This document shows positions 3,509-36,636 of a stretch of 37,724 bases of DNA, one piece after another. Made by a program: the position numbers and the translations under genes. The notes beneath the pieces are model-generated. The model had not been told where the DNA came from. It saw nothing but the letters and a program-made list of their open reading frames with translations, and made no database searches. This DNA comes from a virus: the IMG/VR virus record IMGVR_UViG_3300001798_000003, positions 1-37,724 of that record. One strand, 5' to 3'. How positions within the stretch are numbered: position 1 is the first letter of the stretch; every line of letters begins with the position of its first letter.

Positions 3509-3715
3509 ATGGACACAGGAACAGTTTTAGCATTGATTTTAGGTAATGCTGCTCTCATCATACCGCTATTTTTATGGAATAGATCGGAGTCACGATCTGA
3601 TATTCGTCATATGGATTCTAAATTGGAATCGACTCGTGAATTGGTTAGGGCGATACATGACGAGGTTAAAGATTTTCATAGCAGACTGTGTAAAATCGAA
3701 GAGAAAAGAAGGTAG
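3509..3715 (+). CDS. FHGRLC-family small membrane protein (member 1)
   Basis: The protein has 68 residues. Residues about 4-22 form one transmembrane helix (TVLALILGNAALIIPLFLW). Then come NRSESRSD, a charged helix, and the end motif DFHSRLCKIEE. The same WNRSESR segment and D-F-H-x-R-L-C-x-I-E-E ending recur in the genes at 11522 and 23366; two further relatives lie at 11704 and 36373. The expected topology is a short N-terminus, one membrane pass and a cytoplasmic charged helix, though this is only a prediction. Function is unknown: a holin-like, exclusion or host-takeover role is possible. Terminators lie directly before and after it. Confidence 0.7.
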   Translation: MDTGTVLALILGNAALIIPLFLWNRSESRSDIRHMDSKLESTRELVRAIHDEVKDFHSRLCKIEEKRR

Positions 3716-7053: not shown

Positions 7054-7305
7054 TTAAAAGTTTCTAAATTCATCTGTAGCTGCATCACTTGTGTAAATAC
7101 CCTCATCGTTTTTGAGACGGTTTTTACTCTTGAGCGATTGATTCAACGCTCCCATGAGTGCTTCTTTAGAATTTAAAATACAATGTCCAGCGGAATCTTT
7201 CAAAGATCTTTTGTCATATAAATTCATGACTTCTTTGACTTTTCCAGTGTGGGGGATTTCTCCCCCACTACCCATTCCATCATAGAGGGATGATTTCTTA
7301 GCCAT
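7054..7305 (-). CDS. Unknown late protein
   Basis: The 83-residue protein is hydrophilic, with an N-terminal MAKKSSLYDGMGSGGEIPHTG and a central helix. It overlaps the upstream HNH gene by 8 bases. The close spacing fits the late operon. Nothing in the sequence indicates a function. Confidence 0.5.
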   Translation of the reverse strand: MAKKSSLYDGMGSGGEIPHTGKVKEVMNLYDKRSLKDSAGHCILNSKEALMGALNQSLKSKNRLKNDEGIYTSDAATDEFRNF

Positions 7306-7915
7306 TAATTACCTCAACATGCTTCCATGTTTCATTATGCTTTATGCGAGATATCACTTTCGGTGAAACTCCAAACATCCTAGCGATTTCACTGCCTTGT
7401 ATTTTATCATTCAGCATAAACTTTATTTTTTCAACTTGTTCTTCAGTTAATTTAGCTACTTTTAGTTGGCTTCCATTAGGAGTATTTGATCTGCCTTTCT
7501 TTATTTTGTCTTGTGTATTTTCTTTATATGTTCCAAGCCACAAGTGCTCTGGATTTGTACATTTTGTGTTGTCACAAGTATGACAAACAAGAACCCCTTT
7601 TGGAATCGGCCCATTATGTACTATCCATGAGGCTCTATGAGCTTTAAGATAAGGACGAATTCCTAATATTGCATACCCTCGAACTACACATCCCTTCCAA
7701 TCCCAGCAGCCTTCCTGTTTAACAACATTCTTTTCATAATTTTTTTTTATTCTAGCAAGATTGGCTTCTTCTGATAGTTCAGAATTTTTTGTCCTACCCT
7801 TTAAACCCTTCCAACTCCTGCATTTAAAAGAGCAAAATCTAGGCGGTTTACCCTTATTGCATCTTCTCCACTTATATTTTTGCCCACATGTCTCGCACTC
7901 TGATATTCCGTGCAT
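7298..7915 (-). CDS. HNH homing endonuclease (first of three)
   Basis: The protein has 205 residues. An N-terminal zinc-binding pair (C7, C10, C28, C32) precedes an HNH region: CWDWKG at 70-75, AHRASWIVH at 92-100 and CHTCDNTKCTNPEHLWLG at 111-128. The C-terminal 50 residues (KLTEEQVEKIKFML to the end) form a helix-turn-helix of the type fused to HNH homing enzymes. Such genes spread by cutting alleles that lack them. It lies between the repeat-rich fibre gene and small late genes and uses the same strand. Nothing shows that it interrupts a coding sequence. Confidence 0.85.
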   Translation of the reverse strand: MHGISECETCGQKYKWRRCNKGKPPRFCSFKCRSWKGLKGRTKNSELSEEANLARIKKNYEKNVVKQEGCWDWKGCVVRGYAILGIRPYLKAHRASWIVHNGPIPKGVLVCHTCDNTKCTNPEHLWLGTYKENTQDKIKKGRSNTPNGSQLKVAKLTEEQVEKIKFMLNDKIQGSEIARMFGVSPKVISRIKHNETWKHVEVING

Positions 7916-7970: not shown

Positions 7971-10346
7971 CTAGGTCTGCCGGACAATCAGATAGTCAAA
8001 TGTGGAGACGTCTGTAGCTACGGCAGCACCAGCTGCGCTATAAGCTGCGATGGTGAAGCTTGCGCCTGCGCTGATAGTAGTGATCGGGAATCCCAATGCT
8101 GGCGAGCCATTCAAGGCTGATCTTGTTACGAAGATCCTATCACCTGCTGCGATGTTGGTATTAGCCACGGTTACAGTTCCAGCAACAAGAGTAGCTCTGC
8201 CGATGAAGTCGGTTACTGCACCGCCATTCATCGAGATCTTAGTTGCAACTGATGTCAAGTTAAAGTCTGTAGCACAGTTTACAGCACCTGATCCTGCTGT
8301 AATATTGACCGCAGTAGCACCAGTTGTATTACCGATTGTAATAGTCTTAGCAGCGGCATCAGCTCCGATATTGATCGCGCCTGTTCCTGTGACAATCCCA
8401 AAACTTCCATTGGTTGTAGTCCAAGCACATGCTCCGCTACCAGAGTTGACATTAACGGCGGTTGCTCCTGTCACGTTACCGATAGTAATCGTTTTGGCAG
8501 CGGCATCAGCTCCGATGTTGATTGCGCCTGTTCCAGTAACAAGTCCAAATGTGCCATTAGTAGTGGTATATGTAGAGCCACCAGTTCCGGTATTGATATT
8601 CACGGCTGTTGCGCCTGTGATGTTACCGATAGTGATGGTCTTAGCAATTGCTGTACCAATGTTCAATGCACCTGTACCTGCATCGATTACAACACTTGTA
8701 GCGCCCGTTTGGTTACCAATTGTTATAGTCTTGGCGGCGGCATCAGCCCCGATGTTGATTGCACCTGTACCTGTAACTAAGCCAAAGCTACCGTTTGTGG
8801 TTGTCCAAGCACATGCCCCAGTTCCTGAGTTCACGTTGACGGCAGTCGCGCCAGTGATATTACCAATGGTAATCGTTTTCGCGGCGGCATCAGCCCCAAG
8901 GTTAATAGCTCCGGTACCAGTCACCAGGCCGAATGAACCATTAGTTGTCGTCCAAGCGCAAGCACCTGTGCCCGAATTGACGTTTACGGCTGTGGCACCA
9001 GTAACGTTACCGATAGTCACTGTGTGAGCAATGGCGTTCGTACCAATGTTAAGAGCGCCTGTACCACAGTTTACAACAACTGATGTAGCACCTGTAGAGT
9101 TACCAATGGTAATTGTATGTGCGGCGGCATCAGCTCCAATATTAATAGCTCCCGTACCAGTCACCAACGAGAACGTTCCGTTTGTAGTCGTATAGGTTGA
9201 ACCGCCTGTACCTGCTGTGATGTTAACCGCAGTCGCTCCAGTAGCATTACCAATGGTGATTGTTTTGGCAATCGCAGTACCGATATTGATTGCTCCTGTA
9301 CCCGAATCAACGGTAACGCTGGTTGCACCAGTCTGATTACCGATGACGATCGGTTGTGCAATTGCGTTGGCTCCGACTGAGATCCCTGCTGTTCCACCAT
9401 TAAGAACGACTTGTGTGGCGCCTGTAGAGTTACCCAAAGTAATTACTCGTGCGGCGGCACCTGTACCAATATTAATATTTTGAGCTACGGCATCATTGCC
9501 AATTGAGATCACGCCAGCCGAGGAATTAATCTCAACAACGCCTGCGCCATCGATAAGGACGGTATCGGCAGATGTTAAGGTGATGTCCCCTGCGCCTGTT
9601 GTTGCAACCGCAAATGATCCTGTACCTGTATTGATAGCTACCGCCGTTGCGCCTGTAACGTTACCAATGGTAATTACACGTGCACCGGCTCCAGTACCGA
9701 TATTTACTGCACCAGTTGAAGCATCAGAGGCCAGGTTAAGAGCTGTTGCGCCAGTAGTGATGGTTGCGCTTGCAGTGCCTGTGATGAGACCTGAGAAATT
9801 AGCTGTTGTACCAATAACCGCAGTAAATGACCCAGCAGCTGGAGTTGTACCACCGATTGCTGGAGGAGCTGCAAATACCGCAGCGAGGTTAGATGGTTGT
9901 ACTGCAAGAGCCGTGACCCCAGGGACTGTTGCTGTTCCTGCTACGGCCTGCGCATCTGTAGCTAGGTTGGTAATCCCTGTAACGCCTGTTTGAGCAATAG
10001 GGGCTCCGGCTACGGCTACGGAATTGATATAGGTGAAAACGTCATTAGCTGTGCCAACATAGTATGCGGCAGGAGCTGTTCCTGTAGAGAGTTCTGCATA
10101 AGTAGCAAGTTCAACTATACCTGTTGAGGTTGTTGTTGCTACTGGGTTTGCTCCAACATCCCAGATGCCGTTACCAGTAGTTTCATAGATAACAGGTGGA
10201 TTTACAGAGCCATCAGACCATCGAGTTCCGATAGGATAAATGTCATTAGTTGTAGGAGCACGATTAGCAGTGATGAGGACAGGGTTTTGAAAGAAGTTGA
10301 TGCCTGTATATCCGAGTGGGTTTTGACCCATTGAATTTGATGTCAT
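7971..10346 (-). CDS. Repeat-rich tail fibre protein
   Basis: This 791-residue protein has three parts. Residues 1-190 form an N-terminal attachment part, with a late GGTTPAAGSFT motif common in fibres. Residues about 190-700 hold eleven variants of a unit containing T-I-T-I-G-N-x-T-G-A-T-A-V, usually followed by G-T-G-A-x-N-I-G. The last 90 residues are a beta domain ending DVSTFDYLIVRQT, like many fibre tips. The repeats predict a long triple-stranded beta fibre. Some units carry an extra ACAWTTTNGSFGLV-like insert. The gene has its own leader (10347-10450) shared with the capsid gene, which suggests strong late expression. The ligand is unknown. Confidence 0.75.
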   Translation of the reverse strand: MTSNSMGQNPLGYTGINFFQNPVLITANRAPTTNDIYPIGTRWSDGSVNPPVIYETTGNGIWDVGANPVATTTSTGIVELATYAELSTGTAPAAYYVGTANDVFTYINSVAVAGAPIAQTGVTGITNLATDAQAVAGTATVPGVTALAVQPSNLAAVFAAPPAIGGTTPAAGSFTAVIGTTANFSGLITGTASATITTGATALNLASDASTGAVNIGTGAGARVITIGNVTGATAVAINTGTGSFAVATTGAGDITLTSADTVLIDGAGVVEINSSAGVISIGNDAVAQNINIGTGAAARVITLGNSTGATQVVLNGGTAGISVGANAIAQPIVIGNQTGATSVTVDSGTGAINIGTAIAKTITIGNATGATAVNITAGTGGSTYTTTNGTFSLVTGTGAINIGADAAAHTITIGNSTGATSVVVNCGTGALNIGTNAIAHTVTIGNVTGATAVNVNSGTGACAWTTTNGSFGLVTGTGAINLGADAAAKTITIGNITGATAVNVNSGTGACAWTTTNGSFGLVTGTGAINIGADAAAKTITIGNQTGATSVVIDAGTGALNIGTAIAKTITIGNITGATAVNINTGTGGSTYTTTNGTFGLVTGTGAINIGADAAAKTITIGNVTGATAVNVNSGSGACAWTTTNGSFGIVTGTGAINIGADAAAKTITIGNTTGATAVNITAGSGAVNCATDFNLTSVATKISMNGGAVTDFIGRATLVAGTVTVANTNIAAGDRIFVTRSALNGSPALGFPITTISAGASFTIAAYSAAGAAVATDVSTFDYLIVRQT
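8280..9780 (-). repeat. Coding tandem repeats of the fibre gene
   Basis: About 1.5 kb of imperfect tandem repeats encode eleven TIGN-x-TGA units. Some neighbouring units are nearly identical at DNA level, which allows unequal recombination and change in fibre length. Boundaries are approximate, taken from the first and last recognisable units. Confidence 0.8.
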
Positions 10347-10514: not shown

Positions 10515-10548
10515 GATAAGTTGTTAGCCTCAAATAAGAGAGTAAAAT

Positions 10549-10824
10549 ATGCAGAAGATAACAGAAAAATATTTAGCTATTCGGATAGATGGAGACCTTC
10601 ATCGCAGAGCAAAATTGCAAGCCTATAAAGAAGGTAAGAGCATCCAAGAATGGCTAGCCCATGTCATAGAGAATAAGTTGAAGGATAAACGCTCTACATG
10701 TATTCGTCTTTGTGAAGCTTGTGGCAAATGGAATTTGAAAGGGACTCAAATGGCTATGATCGGTAAATGTGAAGAATGTGGTCATGATGATATCGCTGTG
10801 TTTCCTTGTTGGGAGAAAAAATGA
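10549..10824 (+). CDS. Ribbon-helix-helix protein with C-terminal zinc ribbon
   Basis: The protein has 91 residues. Residues 7-45 have the Arc/MetJ pattern: a strand (YLAIRIDG), then two helices (LHRRAKLQAYKEGKSIQEWL and the following segment). The C-terminal half has C55xxC58 and C74xxC77, a zinc ribbon. RHH dimers bind short palindromes through the strand, and a palindrome lies just upstream. The fusion suggests a regulator with a second DNA- or protein-binding surface. It opens a plus-strand island inside the minus-strand late operon. The gene at 30819 has the reverse order (Cys-rich part, then RHH). Confidence 0.65.
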   Translation: MQKITEKYLAIRIDGDLHRRAKLQAYKEGKSIQEWLAHVIENKLKDKRSTCIRLCEACGKWNLKGTQMAMIGKCEECGHDDIAVFPCWEKK

Positions 10825-11060
10825 AGAAATATCCTTCTCAAGAAGAAATTGATGAATTACATAGACTAATTCTTGTCTTTGCCATCGCAAATGGTTGGAG
10901 CAGATCTGCCGTTTTAGCTTTTTTAAAGATTTCTTTTGTTGGGACTATGGCAATGGCAAATTATTCTGATGAATTTTTCGACAAAACATGTGAAAGGATG
11001 AAGGAGAAATTTAAAAATCATCCTATGAGAAATTCACAAAAAAGGGAGAAAAATGACTGA
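10821..11060 (+). CDS. Unknown small helical protein
   Basis: The 79-residue protein starts at an ATG at 10821 that overlaps the previous stop (ATGA), with GGGAG ahead; an earlier in-frame start at 10806 is less likely. The sequence is helical, with a hydrophobic middle (ILVFAIANGWSRSAVLAFLKISF) that is too polar for a sure membrane helix. The basic C-terminus ends in KREKND. It overlaps the alpha-CTD-like gene by 8 bases. No family is recognised. Confidence 0.55.
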   Translation: MKKYPSQEEIDELHRLILVFAIANGWSRSAVLAFLKISFVGTMAMANYSDEFFDKTCERMKEKFKNHPMRNSQKREKND

Positions 11061-11472
11061 AAAAATCATAACGATTCTTGATTTAAAAATAAGAGATGCA
11101 AATTTTTCTGCTAGAACAGAGAACTGTTTAAGGAGAATTAATATCCTTACGATTAATGATTTAATAAAATGGACTTCTTCTGAATTAATGAAGGAAAGGA
11201 ATTTTGGCAAAAGATCATTATTTGAAATTAGATTATTTTTAAATGAAAGAGGACTTTGTTTGGCTGATGAGACCAAGATGAAGGAAAGAATTAGCAAAAT
11301 TCCGTACAGTTTGGCCAATGTGAAAATGCAAATAGAAGAAATTGAAAACCTTGCATGGAATCTTAAAAAACATTTTATAGAATTAGAAAAAGAACTAGTA
11401 GATATTCAAAAGATTCAGGAATTTCTTTCACAAGAAAAAACGCAAGAAGATGAAGCGAAGGAAAGAGATTGA
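11053..11472 (+). CDS. RNA polymerase alpha-CTD-like DNA-binding protein with coiled coil
   Basis: The protein has 139 residues. Residues about 7-70 follow the C-terminal domain of the bacterial RNA polymerase alpha subunit: ILDLKIRDANFSARTENCL, a helix TINDLIKWTSSEL, then NFGKRSLFEIRLFL. Aligned by eye with E. coli, the UP-element-contact residues R265, N268, C269, G296, S299 and E302 correspond to R21, N24, C25, G52, S55 and E58; K298 is R54. The rest (90-139) is a charged coiled coil, and there is no alpha N-terminal domain. It could compete with host alpha-CTD on promoters, recruit other factors through the coiled coil, or bind UP-like DNA on its own. It lies in a plus-strand island with other small regulators. 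Confidence 0.7.
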   Translation: MTEKIITILDLKIRDANFSARTENCLRRINILTINDLIKWTSSELMKERNFGKRSLFEIRLFLNERGLCLADETKMKERISKIPYSLANVKMQIEEIENLAWNLKKHFIELEKELVDIQKIQEFLSQEKTQEDEAKERD

Positions 11473-11521: not shown

Positions 11522-11707
11522 ATGGAATGGACACAATTTCTAATTTTGATCGTGACTTTTGCGGGCTTATTTTTTTGGAACAGATCAGAATCACGTTCAG
11601 ATAATCGAGAATTAAGAGCAGAAACAATGGTGATCCTGCGAGCAATAGAAACCGAAATGAAGGACTTCCACGGTAGACTTTGCGCCATTGAAGAGAGTAG
11701 AAAATGA
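11522..11707 (+). CDS. FHGRLC-family small membrane protein (member 2)
   Basis: The protein has 61 residues. Residues about 5-19 form a short transmembrane helix (QFLILIVTFAGLFFW). NRSESRSDNREL follows, then a helix and MKDFHGRLCAIEE. It is most like the genes at 3509 and 23366. A GGAGAGAGG ribosome site precedes the ATG. It is the first of five overlapping small membrane-protein genes (to 12284), joined to the next by ATGA. Function unknown. Confidence 0.7.
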   Translation: MEWTQFLILIVTFAGLFFWNRSESRSDNRELRAETMVILRAIETEMKDFHGRLCAIEESRK

Positions 11708-11877
11708 ACTGGACAATGGCTCTCGAAATCGTAGGATTTATCGGCGGCATAGCAACATTTATTGGGTTAATGTTGGCCCCTATGTTTTATCTTGGATCAA
11801 AAATAGATGGAATCCATAAAGACTTGAGCGAAATCAATGGCAGACTTTGCACATTAGAGGAAAGGAGTAAGAAATGA
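11704..11877 (+). CDS. FHGRLC-family small membrane protein (member 3, diverged)
   Basis: The 57-residue protein begins MNWTMALEIV and has a transmembrane stretch at about residues 6-30 (glycine-rich, GFIGGIATFIGLMLAPMF). It ends DLSEINGRLCTLEERSKK. The motif keeps G-R-L-C-x-L-E-E, but F-H is replaced by I-N. The start overlaps the previous stop by ATGA. It is probably a diverged duplicate of its neighbour at 11522. Confidence 0.65.
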   Translation: MNWTMALEIVGFIGGIATFIGLMLAPMFYLGSKIDGIHKDLSEINGRLCTLEERSKK

Positions 11878-11948
11878 TCTGGCCTATTATTTTATGTATC
11901 TTGATCTTATCTTGGGGAATTTATTGGAGTGTCCCTCATGGAAAATAA
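11874..11948 (+). CDS. Very short membrane peptide
   Basis: A 24-residue reading frame is almost entirely one hydrophobic helix (IWPIILCILILSWGIYW). It begins inside the previous gene's stop (ATGA) after AAGGAGT and overlaps the next start by 11 bases. A frame this short would be weak alone, but exact coupling on both sides in a run of membrane proteins makes it plausible. Confidence 0.45.
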   Translation: MIWPIILCILILSWGIYWSVPHGK

Positions 11949-12084
11949 GGTTAATTGGGAAAAAATCGGCATATATTTTGTTGCTGTAGCTACATTTTTC
12001 ACAATCATGATCTATTTAGCTGACATGAAGGAAAGAATTGCTAAGCTCGAAGTTAAAGTTGAACATCTTGAGGTAAAGAAATGA
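11938..12084 (+). CDS. Small membrane protein with coiled-coil tail
   Basis: The protein has 48 residues. Residues about 10-28 form one membrane helix (IGIYFVAVATFFTIMIYLA). A heptad tail follows (MKERIAKLEVKVEHLEVKK). The layout resembles the FHGRLC proteins but the motif is missing. Its stop overlaps the next ATG (ATGA). A role in a membrane complex with its neighbours is inferred from coupling alone. Confidence 0.55.
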   Translation: MENKVNWEKIGIYFVAVATFFTIMIYLADMKERIAKLEVKVEHLEVKK

Positions 12085-12284
12085 AAAAGTTTTATATGGT
12101 TATTTTAATGATTTTGACTGTCATGAATACTTATATGGCTATAGCTCAATATCGTGGGCAATCAGAATTCATGCATGAACATTTTTACGAGATCGCAACA
12201 ACTCTTAAGATCATGAAAAAGAATCAGGATACGATGTTTTTCGATGTGAAAATGATGAAAGCGCATGAAGGACTCGGCTTATGA
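12081..12284 (+). CDS. Small membrane protein, last of the cassette
   Basis: The 67-residue protein has a hydrophobic N-terminal helix (FYMVILMILTVMNTYMAIA) that could be a signal anchor, followed by a polar helical part rich in methionine and histidine. It is coupled to the preceding gene by ATGA. Its end overlaps the convergent late gene by 6 bases. A plain type II membrane protein or inner-membrane spanin-like role is possible, but no pairing partner is shown. Confidence 0.55.
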   Translation: MKKFYMVILMILTVMNTYMAIAQYRGQSEFMHEHFYEIATTLKIMKKNQDTMFFDVKMMKAHEGLGL

Positions 12285-12920
12285 AATGCGTTGATACGGA
12301 TAGCCACCTTGACGAATCAATTCATAAAAGGCCGCCCCCAGTGATGGAATCTTACCTTGCCACCACTTTCCAAAACGATTCTCGCCTTTTGTCTTCGCGG
12401 GAATTGCGCCTTGTTGAAACACGCGGAAAACTCCAGGTGGAACGCCTTGATATCCATAAACAGCTCCTGATTGGAATCGGACTAGGAGTGAGCCGCTCTT
12501 TGGATTGTAGTTGAATCCGTAGATGTTACTCGAATCGATAGGCGCTTGTTGAATGCCTCCTTCTTGACCTCTGAGACCTTGAGGCATTGTCCTATTGAGA
12601 CGATCCAATGTTGATTGGAGCATCTCTGGATTCTGCAAGATAGAGTTGAGAGCAGGGTCTGGATAAGTACGAAGATAATTGACAAAGGCATCTTCTTGGC
12701 CGCCAGCTAGAATCCAAAGTAGTTCGGCTCCTACAGGTATTGGAGCTTCAACTTGCGGCTCTCCTTGAGCAGGTTCTTGACCTGCTTGACCTTCCATGAG
12801 AAAGTTCATGGTTTCGGTTAAGAAGTTAGCTACTTCTTGAGCTTCCGCATCATCCAATTCATCGAATGATCCTTCGATTTGATCTATGAATTGAATAAGC
12901 AATCGCAGAAGTTCATCCAC
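12279..12920 (-). CDS. KTSC-domain late protein
   Basis: The protein has 213 residues. The N-terminal 100 residues are acidic and helical. Residues about 128-190 match the KTSC domain: SSNIYGFNYNPKSGSLLVRF, then GAVYGYQGVPPGVFRVFQQG. This small beta domain is found in phage and bacterial proteins and is thought to bind nucleic acid or partners; its role in virions is not settled. The gene lies at the start-to-stop junction (ATGA) with the ejection-type gene upstream, so a place in the injected complex is possible. Confidence 0.65.
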   Translation of the reverse strand: MDELLRLLIQFIDQIEGSFDELDDAEAQEVANFLTETMNFLMEGQAGQEPAQGEPQVEAPIPVGAELLWILAGGQEDAFVNYLRTYPDPALNSILQNPEMLQSTLDRLNRTMPQGLRGQEGGIQQAPIDSSNIYGFNYNPKSGSLLVRFQSGAVYGYQGVPPGVFRVFQQGAIPAKTKGENRFGKWWQGKIPSLGAAFYELIRQGGYPYQRIS

Positions 12921-14770: not shown

Positions 14771-15391
14771 TTAACCTCCCTGACCTTGTTGATTGCCATA
14801 AATCTGTGAAGTATTGGCTCGTCTATTTTTCAACCAATTGCTTGCTGCTCCTCCTACGAAACCGCCTAATCCTCCAAAGCCTCCTGTGCCAGCCTGACCC
14901 AGTCCTTGCATAGCAGTATCGATAAAACCTGGCTGTCCTGCTGTATAAAGATTTTCATTGAATGATGGGTTTAAGCCACCTTGAGCGAAGCCTTGCAATC
15001 CTTGAGCACTTTGCTGTCTTAGTTGCGCTCTAATCGCTCCAAGACGCTCGCTAAGATCCGTACCTGCTCCAACTGCTGCGTTGCGAAAGCCACTGCTTGA
15101 AAGACCTCCTGAGCCCATCCCAGCAAATTGTTCGGAAAGACCAGGGATGATTTGCTCATTGAACCTTCGCATTTCTGGAGCAGCAAAAGCTTGGAAATCG
15201 GCTGGGTTATCACTCAAATTACCGCGATAATAATCCGCAACATCTCCAAACGCTCCGCCTGCTCCTTGGCCACGAATAGAGTTGTAATATTGTTGGGCTA
15301 ATCCTTGTTGCTCTGGATTTAGCGTAGATCTTTGTTGATACTTCCCAGGAGTTCCTCGGAAAAATTTACCTATCTCTTTGAAAAGTCCCAT
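14771..15391 (-). CDS. Probable ejection or tail-associated protein, glycine/glutamine-rich
   Basis: The protein has 206 residues. The N-terminus GLFKEIGKFFRGTPGKYQQ is followed by LNPEQQGLAQQYYNSIRGQG, a form I associate with small injected or tail-tip proteins of tailed phages. The middle is rich in glycine and serine (GMGSGGLSSSGFRNAAVG). The C-terminal third has glycine repeats (GTGGFGGLGGFVGG). These compositions suit a flexible or membrane-active protein released during DNA entry. The stop is two bases before the GTG start of the next gene. Confidence 0.55.
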   Translation of the reverse strand: MGLFKEIGKFFRGTPGKYQQRSTLNPEQQGLAQQYYNSIRGQGAGGAFGDVADYYRGNLSDNPADFQAFAAPEMRRFNEQIIPGLSEQFAGMGSGGLSSSGFRNAAVGAGTDLSERLGAIRAQLRQQSAQGLQGFAQGGLNPSFNENLYTAGQPGFIDTAMQGLGQAGTGGFGGLGGFVGGAASNWLKNRRANTSQIYGNQQGQGG

Positions 15392-23365: not shown

Positions 23366-23572
23366 ATGGACTGGATACAATTTACAATTTTCGTTTTAGG
23401 AAACATGGTATTTACTTTGACGTTGTGGTTATGGAATAGATCCGAATCACGTAATGATCATCGTCAACTTGAAACTCGTGTTTCTGCACTAATCGAAGCC
23501 ATACGACAAGACATGATAGACTTCCACGGGCGTCTATGTGCTATCGAAGAGAAAACCAGAAATCGAAAGTAA
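23366..23572 (+). CDS. FHGRLC-family small membrane protein (member 4)
   Basis: The protein has 68 residues. A membrane helix (FTIFVLGNMVFTLTLWLW) is followed by NRSESRNDHRQL, a charged helix and IDFHGRLCAIEEKTRNRK. It is closest in layout to member 1 at 3509. It lies alone on the plus strand between the capsid gene and the scaffold gene, both minus strand. GAGGACAAAGGGG before the ATG offers a ribosome site. A strong hairpin follows it at 23603-23645. Confidence 0.7.
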   Translation: MDWIQFTIFVLGNMVFTLTLWLWNRSESRNDHRQLETRVSALIEAIRQDMIDFHGRLCAIEEKTRNRK

Positions 23573-27483: not shown

Positions 27484-28167
27484 TCAAGGATCAATAATTA
27501 TATATCCATAATCTACGAGAAATTCTTTAAAATATCTAATCTTATCTTCAACTCTCTGCCCCGAAGGTTGTCCTTTGTGCCATAACTCAAGATTTTCTAT
27601 TCGATTATCGTGTCTTATACCATTTTTATGATGTACACTCTCCCCTTTCTTAAGAGGTCTTTTTAAATGTTCGCTCATGATAAAAATATGTTCTGGGATT
27701 GCTCCTTTATCTGAATTGGCATTCGGATGACCTACTTTTGTAATGATCTTATATCCATCTTTATTTACATGACCATCTCCAGGAGGTTTACGCTTAAGAG
27801 GCCCATGAGGTTCTTGACCGCGATATTTTCTATGGGAAATACGATTGTAAAGAATTCTATTCTCTCTATATCCTGGGATTTCTTCTTCTTTTCTTATCCT
27901 TTCGCATTTACTACAGAGTATCTTGGTTTTATTTTTGATCTTTACGCTCGTCCGCTGACATACAGAACATGGTGTTAATGGTTGCTTAGCTTCTCTAATT
28001 TTTTTAGCACATGTAAAGCAGTGCTTGCCGAAATTCTTATATTCCTTTGAGCAATTAGCACAATATCTCAATGGTAACTTGGCAAACCATCTCTTGTTGT
28101 AGCAAGATTGGCATAAATTGACGTAGTTTGACTTATTTTCTTGATGGCATGATTGACAGATTTTCAT
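27484..28167 (-). CDS. HNH homing endonuclease (second of three)
   Basis: The protein has 227 residues. The N-terminal half has four zinc-binding CxxC-type pairs (from CQSCHQEN to CSKCERIR). The HNH_3-like core is in the second half: EHIFIMSEHLKRPLKKGE, VHHKNG and DNRIENLEL. The gene sits between the large terminase and the portal. Insertion next to terminase genes is common for such elements in phages. The core resembles that of the HNH gene at 33357, with the same E-H-x-x-x-M-x-x-H-L-x-R-P-L pattern. Confidence 0.85.
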   Translation of the reverse strand: MKICQSCHQENKSNYVNLCQSCYNKRWFAKLPLRYCANCSKEYKNFGKHCFTCAKKIREAKQPLTPCSVCQRTSVKIKNKTKILCSKCERIRKEEEIPGYRENRILYNRISHRKYRGQEPHGPLKRKPPGDGHVNKDGYKIITKVGHPNANSDKGAIPEHIFIMSEHLKRPLKKGESVHHKNGIRHDNRIENLELWHKGQPSGQRVEDKIRYFKEFLVDYGYIIIDP

Positions 28168-30514: not shown

Positions 30515-30838
30515 ATGGACAAAAATGAATACTTTAAATCGGTGTGTGCTAGCTTTTTAAATACGCATCAAGATGAAATTCGCAAGCATTTTTTCAATTT
30601 AAACAATGAGCTGGAAGTCTTAGTAGGGCTGCATTTTCCTAAATCTGAAAAAGGCGACTTTTTCTTTTCTCTGCTGATAACTTCTCACCTTATGGAAATA
30701 GTAGCCGTAATCATGTCAATGATACCCGAGGTTAGGGAGAAGCAAATAGATCTTATCTGTAGTCAATTAAAAACTGCTGTCAAGTTTTATGAAAAAAAAT
30801 TGGAGAAAGATAGTGGAAATGATGACAAAAAGAAATAG
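30515..30838 (+). CDS. Unknown helical protein, plus-strand island
   Basis: The 107-residue protein starts at the ATG at 30515 after a strong AGGAGG; an upstream ATG at 30452 lies too far from it. It has helical, alternating charged and hydrophobic parts (DKNEYFKSVCASFLNTHQDE, then LITSHLMEIVAVIMSMIPEV), ending in a lysine-rich tail. The gene at 31201 has the same size class and a similar central helix, so the two may be distant relatives. Confidence 0.6.
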   Translation: MDKNEYFKSVCASFLNTHQDEIRKHFFNLNNELEVLVGLHFPKSEKGDFFFSLLITSHLMEIVAVIMSMIPEVREKQIDLICSQLKTAVKFYEKKLEKDSGNDDKKK

Positions 30839-31208
30839 GGCTAAGTGCAGGATTTGTCTCGATGTCATTGAGAGCGTGAATAGGCATGATTTTGTTAGAT
30901 GTAAATGTGGAGAGATTTTCATTGATGGTGGCAATGGAGAACAAAGCGGAGGTTTCACAAGAGCTGGAGCCAAAGATTACAATAATTTCCTGATTGTCTT
31001 AGATAACGATGAAGAAGTCCCATATAGAAGTATCGTTAGGATTCCTGATCCTATTCCGTCGTTACCTATAGTCAATGAGGAATATCATCCAGTCATGGTA
31101 CGAATACCCAAAAAACTACACCAGCTCATGAAACTTAAAGCAATACAAAATAACCTCACCATTCAAAAATACTTGGAAGCCTTATTGAGGAGAGAGCTGA
31201 ATGTCTAG
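30819..31208 (+). CDS. Cys-rich N-terminal domain fused to ribbon-helix-helix
   Basis: The protein has 129 residues, with a start at 30819 or 30822. The N-terminal part (CRICLDVIESVNRHDFVRC, then CGEIFIDGGNGEQ) resembles a small conserved domain of phage proteins known only by DUF numbers (I recall DUF7695). The C-terminal 45 residues (HPVMVRIPKKLHQLMKLKAIQNN) form an RHH module. The order is opposite to that in the protein at 10549. It probably regulates transcription, possibly its own operon. The reading overlaps its neighbours on both sides. Confidence 0.6.
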   Translation: MMTKRNRAKCRICLDVIESVNRHDFVRCKCGEIFIDGGNGEQSGGFTRAGAKDYNNFLIVLDNDEEVPYRSIVRIPDPIPSLPIVNEEYHPVMVRIPKKLHQLMKLKAIQNNLTIQKYLEALLRRELNV

Positions 31209-33356: not shown

Positions 33357-33860
33357 ATGCCAAAAGCCAATGGCAAATTTGTTTATTGTAAAATATGTTC
33401 TAAGGAATTTTATACAGTTCCTAGCCAAAATCGTCAATTTTGTTCGATCGTTTGTCGAGCAAATTTTCATAACCCAATTCGAGCACAAAAAGTTAAAAAT
33501 GGAAAGATGATTGAATGCCCTATTTGTAAAAAAACCACTTATGTGCAACCCAGTGTTTTGAAATTGAAAAAATATGGAATGAAATTTTGTTCTCGACAAT
33601 GTCGAGCACAGGCTATGAAAATTGGCTTGGCTTCTTGGGGATTTGAAAAAACGGGATCTCAAGGAAATAATGCTAGAAAAAGAATTCAAGTGAATAAAAA
33701 ACGAGTTTACGAACATCGTTGGCTTATGGAACAACATTTAGGAAGACCCTTGAAAAGAAACGAACATGTTCATCATATCAATGGCAATCCTACAGATAAT
33801 CGTATTGAAAATCTTCAAATTGTATCTGCATCAGAGCATGGTAAAATTCATCATTCATAA
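33357..33860 (+). CDS. HNH homing endonuclease (third of three), plus strand
   Basis: The protein has 167 residues. Two N-terminal zinc motifs (CKICSKEF, CPICKKT, each followed by a C-rich return CSIVC or CSRQC) precede EHRWLMEQHLGRPLKRNEH, VHHING and DNRIENLQIV, an HNH_3-type core. It is on the plus strand inside a minus-strand operon and ends 4 bases before the opposing gene. This suggests a later insertion. The core is clearly related to the HNH gene at 27484. Confidence 0.85.
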   Translation: MPKANGKFVYCKICSKEFYTVPSQNRQFCSIVCRANFHNPIRAQKVKNGKMIECPICKKTTYVQPSVLKLKKYGMKFCSRQCRAQAMKIGLASWGFEKTGSQGNNARKRIQVNKKRVYEHRWLMEQHLGRPLKRNEHVHHINGNPTDNRIENLQIVSASEHGKIHHS

Positions 33861-36170: not shown

Positions 36171-36376
36171 TGGGTATTTCTCCTTCTTTGTGGTGTATAT
36201 CTTAAGACAGAAATGGCAAGAGGAGTAAGCTCGTCTACCTCTTCAACTACGACGGTAAGAACAGTCCTCTTCTCTCCATTAGGAAGATTAAGGTTATTCT
36301 CTCGTCTGGCATCACATTTATAGCATGTACAATCAGGGAAGTGATAGACTCTCATTAGGGGTACAGGTTGAGTCAT
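36167..36376 (-). CDS. Small zinc-motif protein
   Basis: The 69-residue protein has CTCYKC near residue 17, then a lysine/arginine-rich middle and a valine-rich strand (KRTVLTVVVEEVDELTPLA). It overlaps the lipoprotein gene by ATGA and the FHGRLC gene by 4 bases. Function unknown. Confidence 0.5.
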   Translation of the reverse strand: MTQPVPLMRVYHFPDCTCYKCDARRENNLNLPNGEKRTVLTVVVEEVDELTPLAISVLRYTPQRRRNTQ

Positions 36377-36546
36377 TCATCTTGCCTTTTTTTTTCTAAA
36401 ATTCTTTGCATCATCTGAAGATATCGTTCTTCCAACGTACATAGCCTACCATGGAAATCTTTCATTTCCTTGAATGTTTCTCTATGCATATACCAGCAAG
36501 CTCCGATTGTAGATCCTGCGATTGTCAAGACTTGTAACCAATTCAT
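36373..36546 (-). CDS. FHGRLC-family small membrane protein (member 5)
   Basis: The protein has 57 residues from the ATG at 36546, which follows GAGGAAGAAG; a longer frame upstream has no ribosome site. The short membrane segment is WLQVLTIAGSTIGACWYM, with MKDFHGRLCTLEE following and a charged end. Unlike members 1, 2 and 4 it lacks WNRSESR. It is the only member on the minus strand, in the replication/accessory arm. Confidence 0.7.
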   Translation of the reverse strand: MNWLQVLTIAGSTIGACWYMHRETFKEMKDFHGRLCTLEERYLQMMQRILEKKRQDE

Positions 36547-36578
36547 CTTCTTCCTCCTCGTTTGTTTTAAAGCCCCAG

Positions 36579-36636
36579 GATTGAACGATCGTTTCTGGAT
36601 GAGTAAATATGGCACCCTGGTTGCGATCGTTCAATC
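36579..36636. repeat. 13-bp inverted repeat with CGATCG cores
   Basis: GATTGAACGATCG at 36579-36591 and CGATCGTTCAATC at 36624-36636 are perfect complements separated by 32 bases; three more pairs (CCA/TGG) extend outside after one bulge. Each half contains CGATCG within a near-palindrome. It lies in the gap after the helicase loader gene. It may be a double operator, a stem that ends the replication transcript, or a recombination site. No T-tract follows. Confidence 0.55.

Follow-up and report, generated by a model that had tools for sequence, protein, structure and literature searches.

A phage genome analysed here encodes a small protein in which the C-terminal domain of the RNA polymerase α subunit (α-CTD) stands free of the remainder of the subunit. 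The window, by which we mean the whole stretch of 37,724 nucleotides (IMG/VR record IMGVR_UViG_3300001798_000003), is a 37.7-kb phage genome with a 101-bp direct terminal repeat and a GC-content of 41%; it encodes a terminase, portal, major capsid protein (MCP), exonuclease, RecT, a ParB-like protein and a DnaC-like loader. On the basis of profile, structural and residue comparisons, residues 7–71 of the protein, hereafter P0001, are a genuine RNA polymerase α-CTD. A helix at residues 87–138 probably forms a coiled coil, predicted to be a dimer. The gene and its surroundings are as follows.

7971–10346, − strand: fibre-like repeat protein gene at one border of the accessory spot, conserved in 8 of 10 relatives examined
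10521–10548, + strand: weak σ70-like promoter candidate (TTGTTA-16-TAAAAT) immediately 5' of the cassette, not above chance
10549–10824, + strand: first cassette gene, 91 aa, RHH (HicB/Arc-like) plus CxxC...CxxC zinc ribbon, a candidate co-regulator (PF05534 HicB, E = 2.9e-5, above cut-off; Arc-like repressor phrog_582, E = 1.6e-3)
10821–11060, + strand: 79-aa protein, its ORF overlapping both neighbors, no Pfam match
11043–11048, + strand: Shine-Dalgarno-like AGGGAG of the α-CTD gene
11053–11472, + strand: α-CTD gene (P0001, 139 aa, ATG start), from PF03118, the AlphaFold model and the AGGGAG 5' of the ATG
11074–11265, + strand: α-CTD, residues 8–71, with the 265 determinant R21, N24, C25, G52, R54, S55 and E58 (phmmer, residue mapping, Foldseek)
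11311–11466, + strand: C-terminal helix, residues 87–138, predicted heptad-repeat coiled coil (model, period 3.5 hydrophobicity)
11522–11707, + strand: small transmembrane (TM) plus helix protein (ESRxD...FHGRLC.IEE motif), with a homologue also 3' of the α-CTD gene in the more distant relative L082 (blastp)
11704–12284, + strand: more small membrane/helical cassette ORFs (11704–11877 and 12081–12284; ORF list, and blastp of 11704–11877)
12279–12920, − strand: KTSC-domain gene at the other border of the spot (PF13619, E = 3.9e-9), conserved in 7 of 10 relatives examined

Domain identity and contact surfaces

Comparison of P0001 to Pfam returned RNA_pol_A_CTD (PF03118; 59 bits, E = 3.7e-16, cut-off 23.8) and no second family above cut-off; the domain begins at about residue 7 and extends to 71. 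With phmmer, the strong matches in the PDB were all α-CTDs (best E = 2e-11), aligned over 64 residues (8–71) free of gaps. A profile of P0001 and its phage relatives matched 55 RNA polymerase α chains in the PDB, and all matches with E < 0.3 were RNA polymerase α subunits. The α-CTD has a helix-hairpin-helix (HhH)-type fold, and other HhH proteins (ski2-type helicase, DNA ligase) appeared in the same search at E of 0.37 or worse; the α-CTD is the best profile match, and no other HhH family matches P0001 better. The AlphaFold model (mean pLDDT 93.6) was superposed by Foldseek on α-CTDs with a backbone rmsd of 0.6–1.0 Å over ~63–65 residues, including α-CTDs solved with DNA (1lb2, 3n4m, 3n97, 9zum). 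The first-pass annotation, which had described the protein as α-CTD-like, is thus upheld by both profile search and superposition. It had also described the N-terminal assembly domain as missing, and so it is: the ORF begins about at the α-CTD, leaving no α-NTD dimerisation/assembly domain, and the NCBIfam rpoA models meet P0001 in their C-terminal part only (at most 57.6 bits, compared to cut-offs of at least 227). P0001 therefore resembles the bacterial RpoA α-CTD (PF03118) in fold (0.6–1.0 Å to E. coli, B. subtilis and Caulobacter) and in its DNA-contact residues, but differs from RpoA in having neither α-NTD nor linker, in its predicted C-terminal coiled coil and in altered residues of the 261 surface.

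The residues that contact UP-element DNA had been picked out by eye in the first-pass annotation, and the gap-free alignment returns the same set: R265, N268, C269, G296, K298, S299 and E302 of E. coli α correspond to R21, N24, C25, G52, R54, S55 and E58 of P0001. Six of the seven positions are identical, compared to 27 of 66 (about 41%) across the domain, and the seventh, K298R, is conservative. The excess has a hypergeometric P of 0.016, by a test that is weak, since these seven are generally the most conserved α-CTD positions. Their placement on the DNA face follows from the gap-free alignment and the backbone superposition, side chains aside. Experiments show that the E. coli α-CTD depends critically on R265 and N268 to bind DNA (PMC11434276).

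The remaining surfaces are kept to differing degrees. The σ-contact 261 surface is altered (D258R and E261N, with D259 kept as D15), such that R14/D15/N17 retain one of three acidic residues, and one of four positions is identical to E. coli. The 287 activator surface (285–288) is half kept. The domain carries a charge of +14/−11, compared to +10/−11 for the comparable E. coli stretch.

Retention of the DNA face does not appear to be forced by the fold, because a weak relative (L049, 102 aa), modelled as an α-CTD fold, lacks most of those residues (N268R, C269V, K298H, S299C, E302A); the L049 model was built on an alignment with true α-CTDs, which partly steered its fold. Among 54 non-redundant α-CTDs from phage loci, K or R occurs at position 298 in 51, S299 in 45 and E302 in 52, and position 287 is variable. 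Positions 298, 299 and 302 played no part in the search patterns by which these α-CTDs were gathered.

Residues 87–138 are a single long predicted helix, with pLDDT 94–98 across its main part. Hydrophobicity along this helix is maximal at a period of 3.5 (shuffle p = 0.0034), and the a/d positions read LIAFLQ/VILLIL. A heptad period with hydrophobic a/d positions points to a coiled coil, probably a dimer, in agreement with the earlier suggestion that a coiled coil has been added to the domain.

The cassette, its relatives and other phage α-CTDs

The α-CTD gene is an accessory gene and sits in an accessory cassette. On the + strand the cassette runs from the RHH/zinc ribbon gene through the 79-aa protein and the α-CTD to the small membrane proteins, flanked by the fibre-like and KTSC genes on the − strand; the start of P0001 shares 8 nt with the end of the preceding ORF. 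No convincing promoter was found near the α-CTD gene (two σ70-like candidates in the region, compared to a shuffle mean of 7.6), and a search of the cassette for repeats or operator-like sites gave nothing convincing. UP-like motifs are marginally enriched in the phage genome: 21 compared to 13 ± 4.4, with 5 of 100 shuffles reaching 21.

Relatives were gathered by terminase (n = 40, many of them fragments). In 39 of these 40, PF03118 had no match at E ≤ 0.001; the other, G025, gave a weak match below cut-off. In several relatives the same spot is occupied by other small opposite-strand genes; in G003, for instance, one encodes an RHH-like protein and one a membrane protein. G025 holds two divergent α-CTD-like proteins with C-terminal helices (L061:8523–8903 and L049:1504–1812), most DNA-contact residues being missing in both and the paralogue being weaker than L049. 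No close relative of P0001 was found in IMG/VR or GTDB genomes, and most tblastn matches in phage and plasmid collections were to annotated or full-length rpoA of hosts, some of them in records labelled 'phage' but consisting of host DNA. Bacterial rpoA lies inside the phage-collection records CAKLQH020000003.1, CAKLQF020000004.1, AFYI01000003.1, AGRM01000003.1 and OR851339.1, which are likely host DNA.

The closest α-CTD, 47% identical to that of P0001 over 59 aa, belongs to L082, a more distant relative of the phage (MCP 37% identical). Its gene is the fourth in a cassette that begins with an RHH-like gene, a membrane protein gene and a gene for a 66-aa protein and ends with another membrane protein gene; a fibre-like gene lies on one side of this cassette, and on the other are virion genes, among them a homologue of 14771–15391 of the window (46% identical). 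IQ-TREE pairs the P0001 and L082 α-CTDs with support of 99/82; the alignment has 72 columns and the tree long branches, and this is the only one of its groupings that we use. In place of the coil, L082 has a σ region-4-like helix-turn-helix (HTH), a weak match (NCBIfam E = 1.1e-4, below cut-off; no Pfam σ4 match). L084, another MCP relative (41%), carries a long helical N-terminus joined to an α-CTD, encoded elsewhere in its genome. L082 and L084 together suggest that a related α-CTD with changing partner domains is present in the extended phage group.

Beyond this group, a single pattern scan of IMG/VR gave 136 loci, of which the best 80 were analysed. Among the 79 ORFs read from the best 80 of 136 loci there was no full rpoA. 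These loci yielded 52 non-redundant proteins: 23 have a σ4-like HTH (according to a model built in this analysis), 22 have a short N-terminus and four begin with the domain and end in a C-terminal tail, as P0001 does. Independently of the custom model, Pfam Sigma70_r4 scored above cut-off in six of eight σ4-class proteins tested. The σ4-like HTH + α-CTD proteins (L082, L071, L077, L078, L081 and others) share the domain with P0001 but have the HTH before the α-CTD, whereas in P0001 the coil comes after it. Across L071–L148, varied phage proteins join a σ-70 region-4-like HTH to an α-CTD, and some add a MerR/excisionase-like HTH at the N-terminus. Such fusions unite, within a single small protein, both of the upstream modules by which RNA polymerase recognises promoters.

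The free α-CTD of phages is not unique to this genome, and the kind is already known by annotation (UniProt/BFVD names). Proteins named 'RNA polymerase, alpha subunit, C-terminal' in UniProt (uncultured Caudovirales, Rhodococcus phage Finch, Mycobacterium phage Mithril; 98–240 aa) are phage α-CTDs too, about 20–36% identical to P0001 over the matched part and named by annotation only; in one of 111 aa (A0A6J5NZM6) the match covers most of the protein, which may therefore share the coil. No α-CTD family in PHROGs was matched by the tested proteins of the phage α-CTD group, and no experimental study of phage free α-CTD proteins was found in the open-licence literature. The group appears to be common and diverse in environmental phages.

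Possible functions

All that goes beyond the identity of the domain and the predicted coil is what we infer. The reading that we favor, with about even confidence, is that P0001 is a phage transcription factor built from an α-CTD, dimeric as predicted, that binds DNA upstream of promoters. Having no α-NTD, it would not be incorporated into polymerase; dimerised by the coil, it would carry two α-CTDs, as does the polymerase's own α dimer. The dimer could bind paired A/T-rich (UP-like) sites upstream of promoters and there compete with, or replace, the α-CTDs of host polymerase, which would shift promoter choice during infection. We favor this reading because the domain is an α-CTD with its 265 determinant intact, because the helix has a heptad period, and because L082, in a matching cassette, and 23 of the 52 phage α-CTD proteins pair an α-CTD with a σ4-like HTH. 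Against it stand the marginal enrichment of UP-like motifs, the lack of a convincing promoter near the gene and the accessory status of the gene. A phage strategy centred on the α-CTD/UP contact has a likeness in the Alt and ModA proteins of T4, which ADP-ribosylate Arg265 of α and affect promoter use; T4, however, modifies host α enzymatically, whereas P0001 is a free copy of the domain (PMC2988021).

The first-pass annotation had proposed a decoy or a bridge at host promoters during takeover, both of which are plausible roles. P0001 might act as a bridge, its α-CTD faces (for σ region 4 and activators) bringing host RNA polymerase to phage promoters while the coil, or the RHH zinc-ribbon protein, supplies DNA specificity. 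Many phages have σ4-like HTHs fused to α-CTDs, which is consistent with such recruitment, as are the RHH gene at the head of the P0001 cassette and the RHH-like gene 5' of the α-CTD gene in L082; yet it is the 261 σ-contact surface that is altered (D258R, E261N) and the 287 surface that is half kept, while the DNA face is intact, and we regard this role as unlikely. Slightly less probable again is that P0001 is a pure decoy, titrating host UP elements (for example those of rRNA promoters) and so shutting down host transcription. An intact 265 determinant on a predicted dimer would suit a decoy, and the T4 modification of Arg265 is a precedent, but modification by Alt caused no general impairment of host transcription (PMC2988021). 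Moreover, the phage genome has, if anything, slightly more UP-like motifs than expected, such that a decoy would also affect the phage itself.

Given the HhH-type fold, the protein could also be a repurposed DNA binder that serves replication, packaging or the nucleoid rather than transcription, and both divergent α-CTD-like proteins of G025 are encoded outside such a cassette, one of them near a replication-like HTH protein. We consider this improbable: what is kept is the full α-CTD-specific DNA face rather than that of a generic HhH, and the σ4–α-CTD relatives point to promoters. That P0001 is a passenger without selected function is very improbable, since its patchy presence among the terminase relatives is set against an open frame with an SD-like sequence and ORF overlap, a DNA face kept although the domain as a whole is only about 41% identical to that of E. 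coli, and the presence in a distant phage (L082) of a related α-CTD gene within a matching cassette.

The reading of P0001 as a transcription factor has a wider form, to which we give rather less than even credence: that tailed phages have repeatedly made small transcription factors from an α-CTD alone, from α-CTD plus coil and from σ4 plus α-CTD, which would occupy UP/−35 DNA independently of polymerase, P0001 being the coil-dimer version. If phage α-CTD proteins do bind promoter-upstream DNA, they would be a further phage route to control of the α-CTD/UP contact, besides modifying α (T4) or binding RNA polymerase. In that case a free α-CTD dimer, or a σ4–α-CTD fusion, could also serve as a minimal tool for asking how promoter strength depends on UP elements and α-CTDs.

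Other genes of the window

The genome gave no host assignment: it has no tRNA, and the only MCP matches are in two MAG contigs from different phyla, which may be mis-binned. We dropped the idea of a defence system, because PADLOC matched PglW weakly and over only a short segment of that 1403-position model.

The fibre-like protein at the border of the spot (7971–10346, − strand) is 791 aa long and built of repeated GA(I/L)NIG...ITIGNxTGAT units. Small apparent TM plus helix proteins occur at 3509–3715, 11522–11707, 11704–11877, 23366–23572 and 36373–36615; they are mutually related, and several share a motif like ESRxDxR...EIKDFHGRLC.IEE. Several relatives encode such proteins too, in many cases on the opposite strand to virion genes. 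The RHH (HicB-like) and zinc-binding segments occur twice in opposite order, with RHH then zinc ribbon at 10549–10824 and a DUF7695-like zinc part then RHH at 30789–31208, and small proteins without assigned function lie 3' of both. HNH endonuclease genes are present at three separate places (7298–7915, 27484–28167 and 33357–33860).
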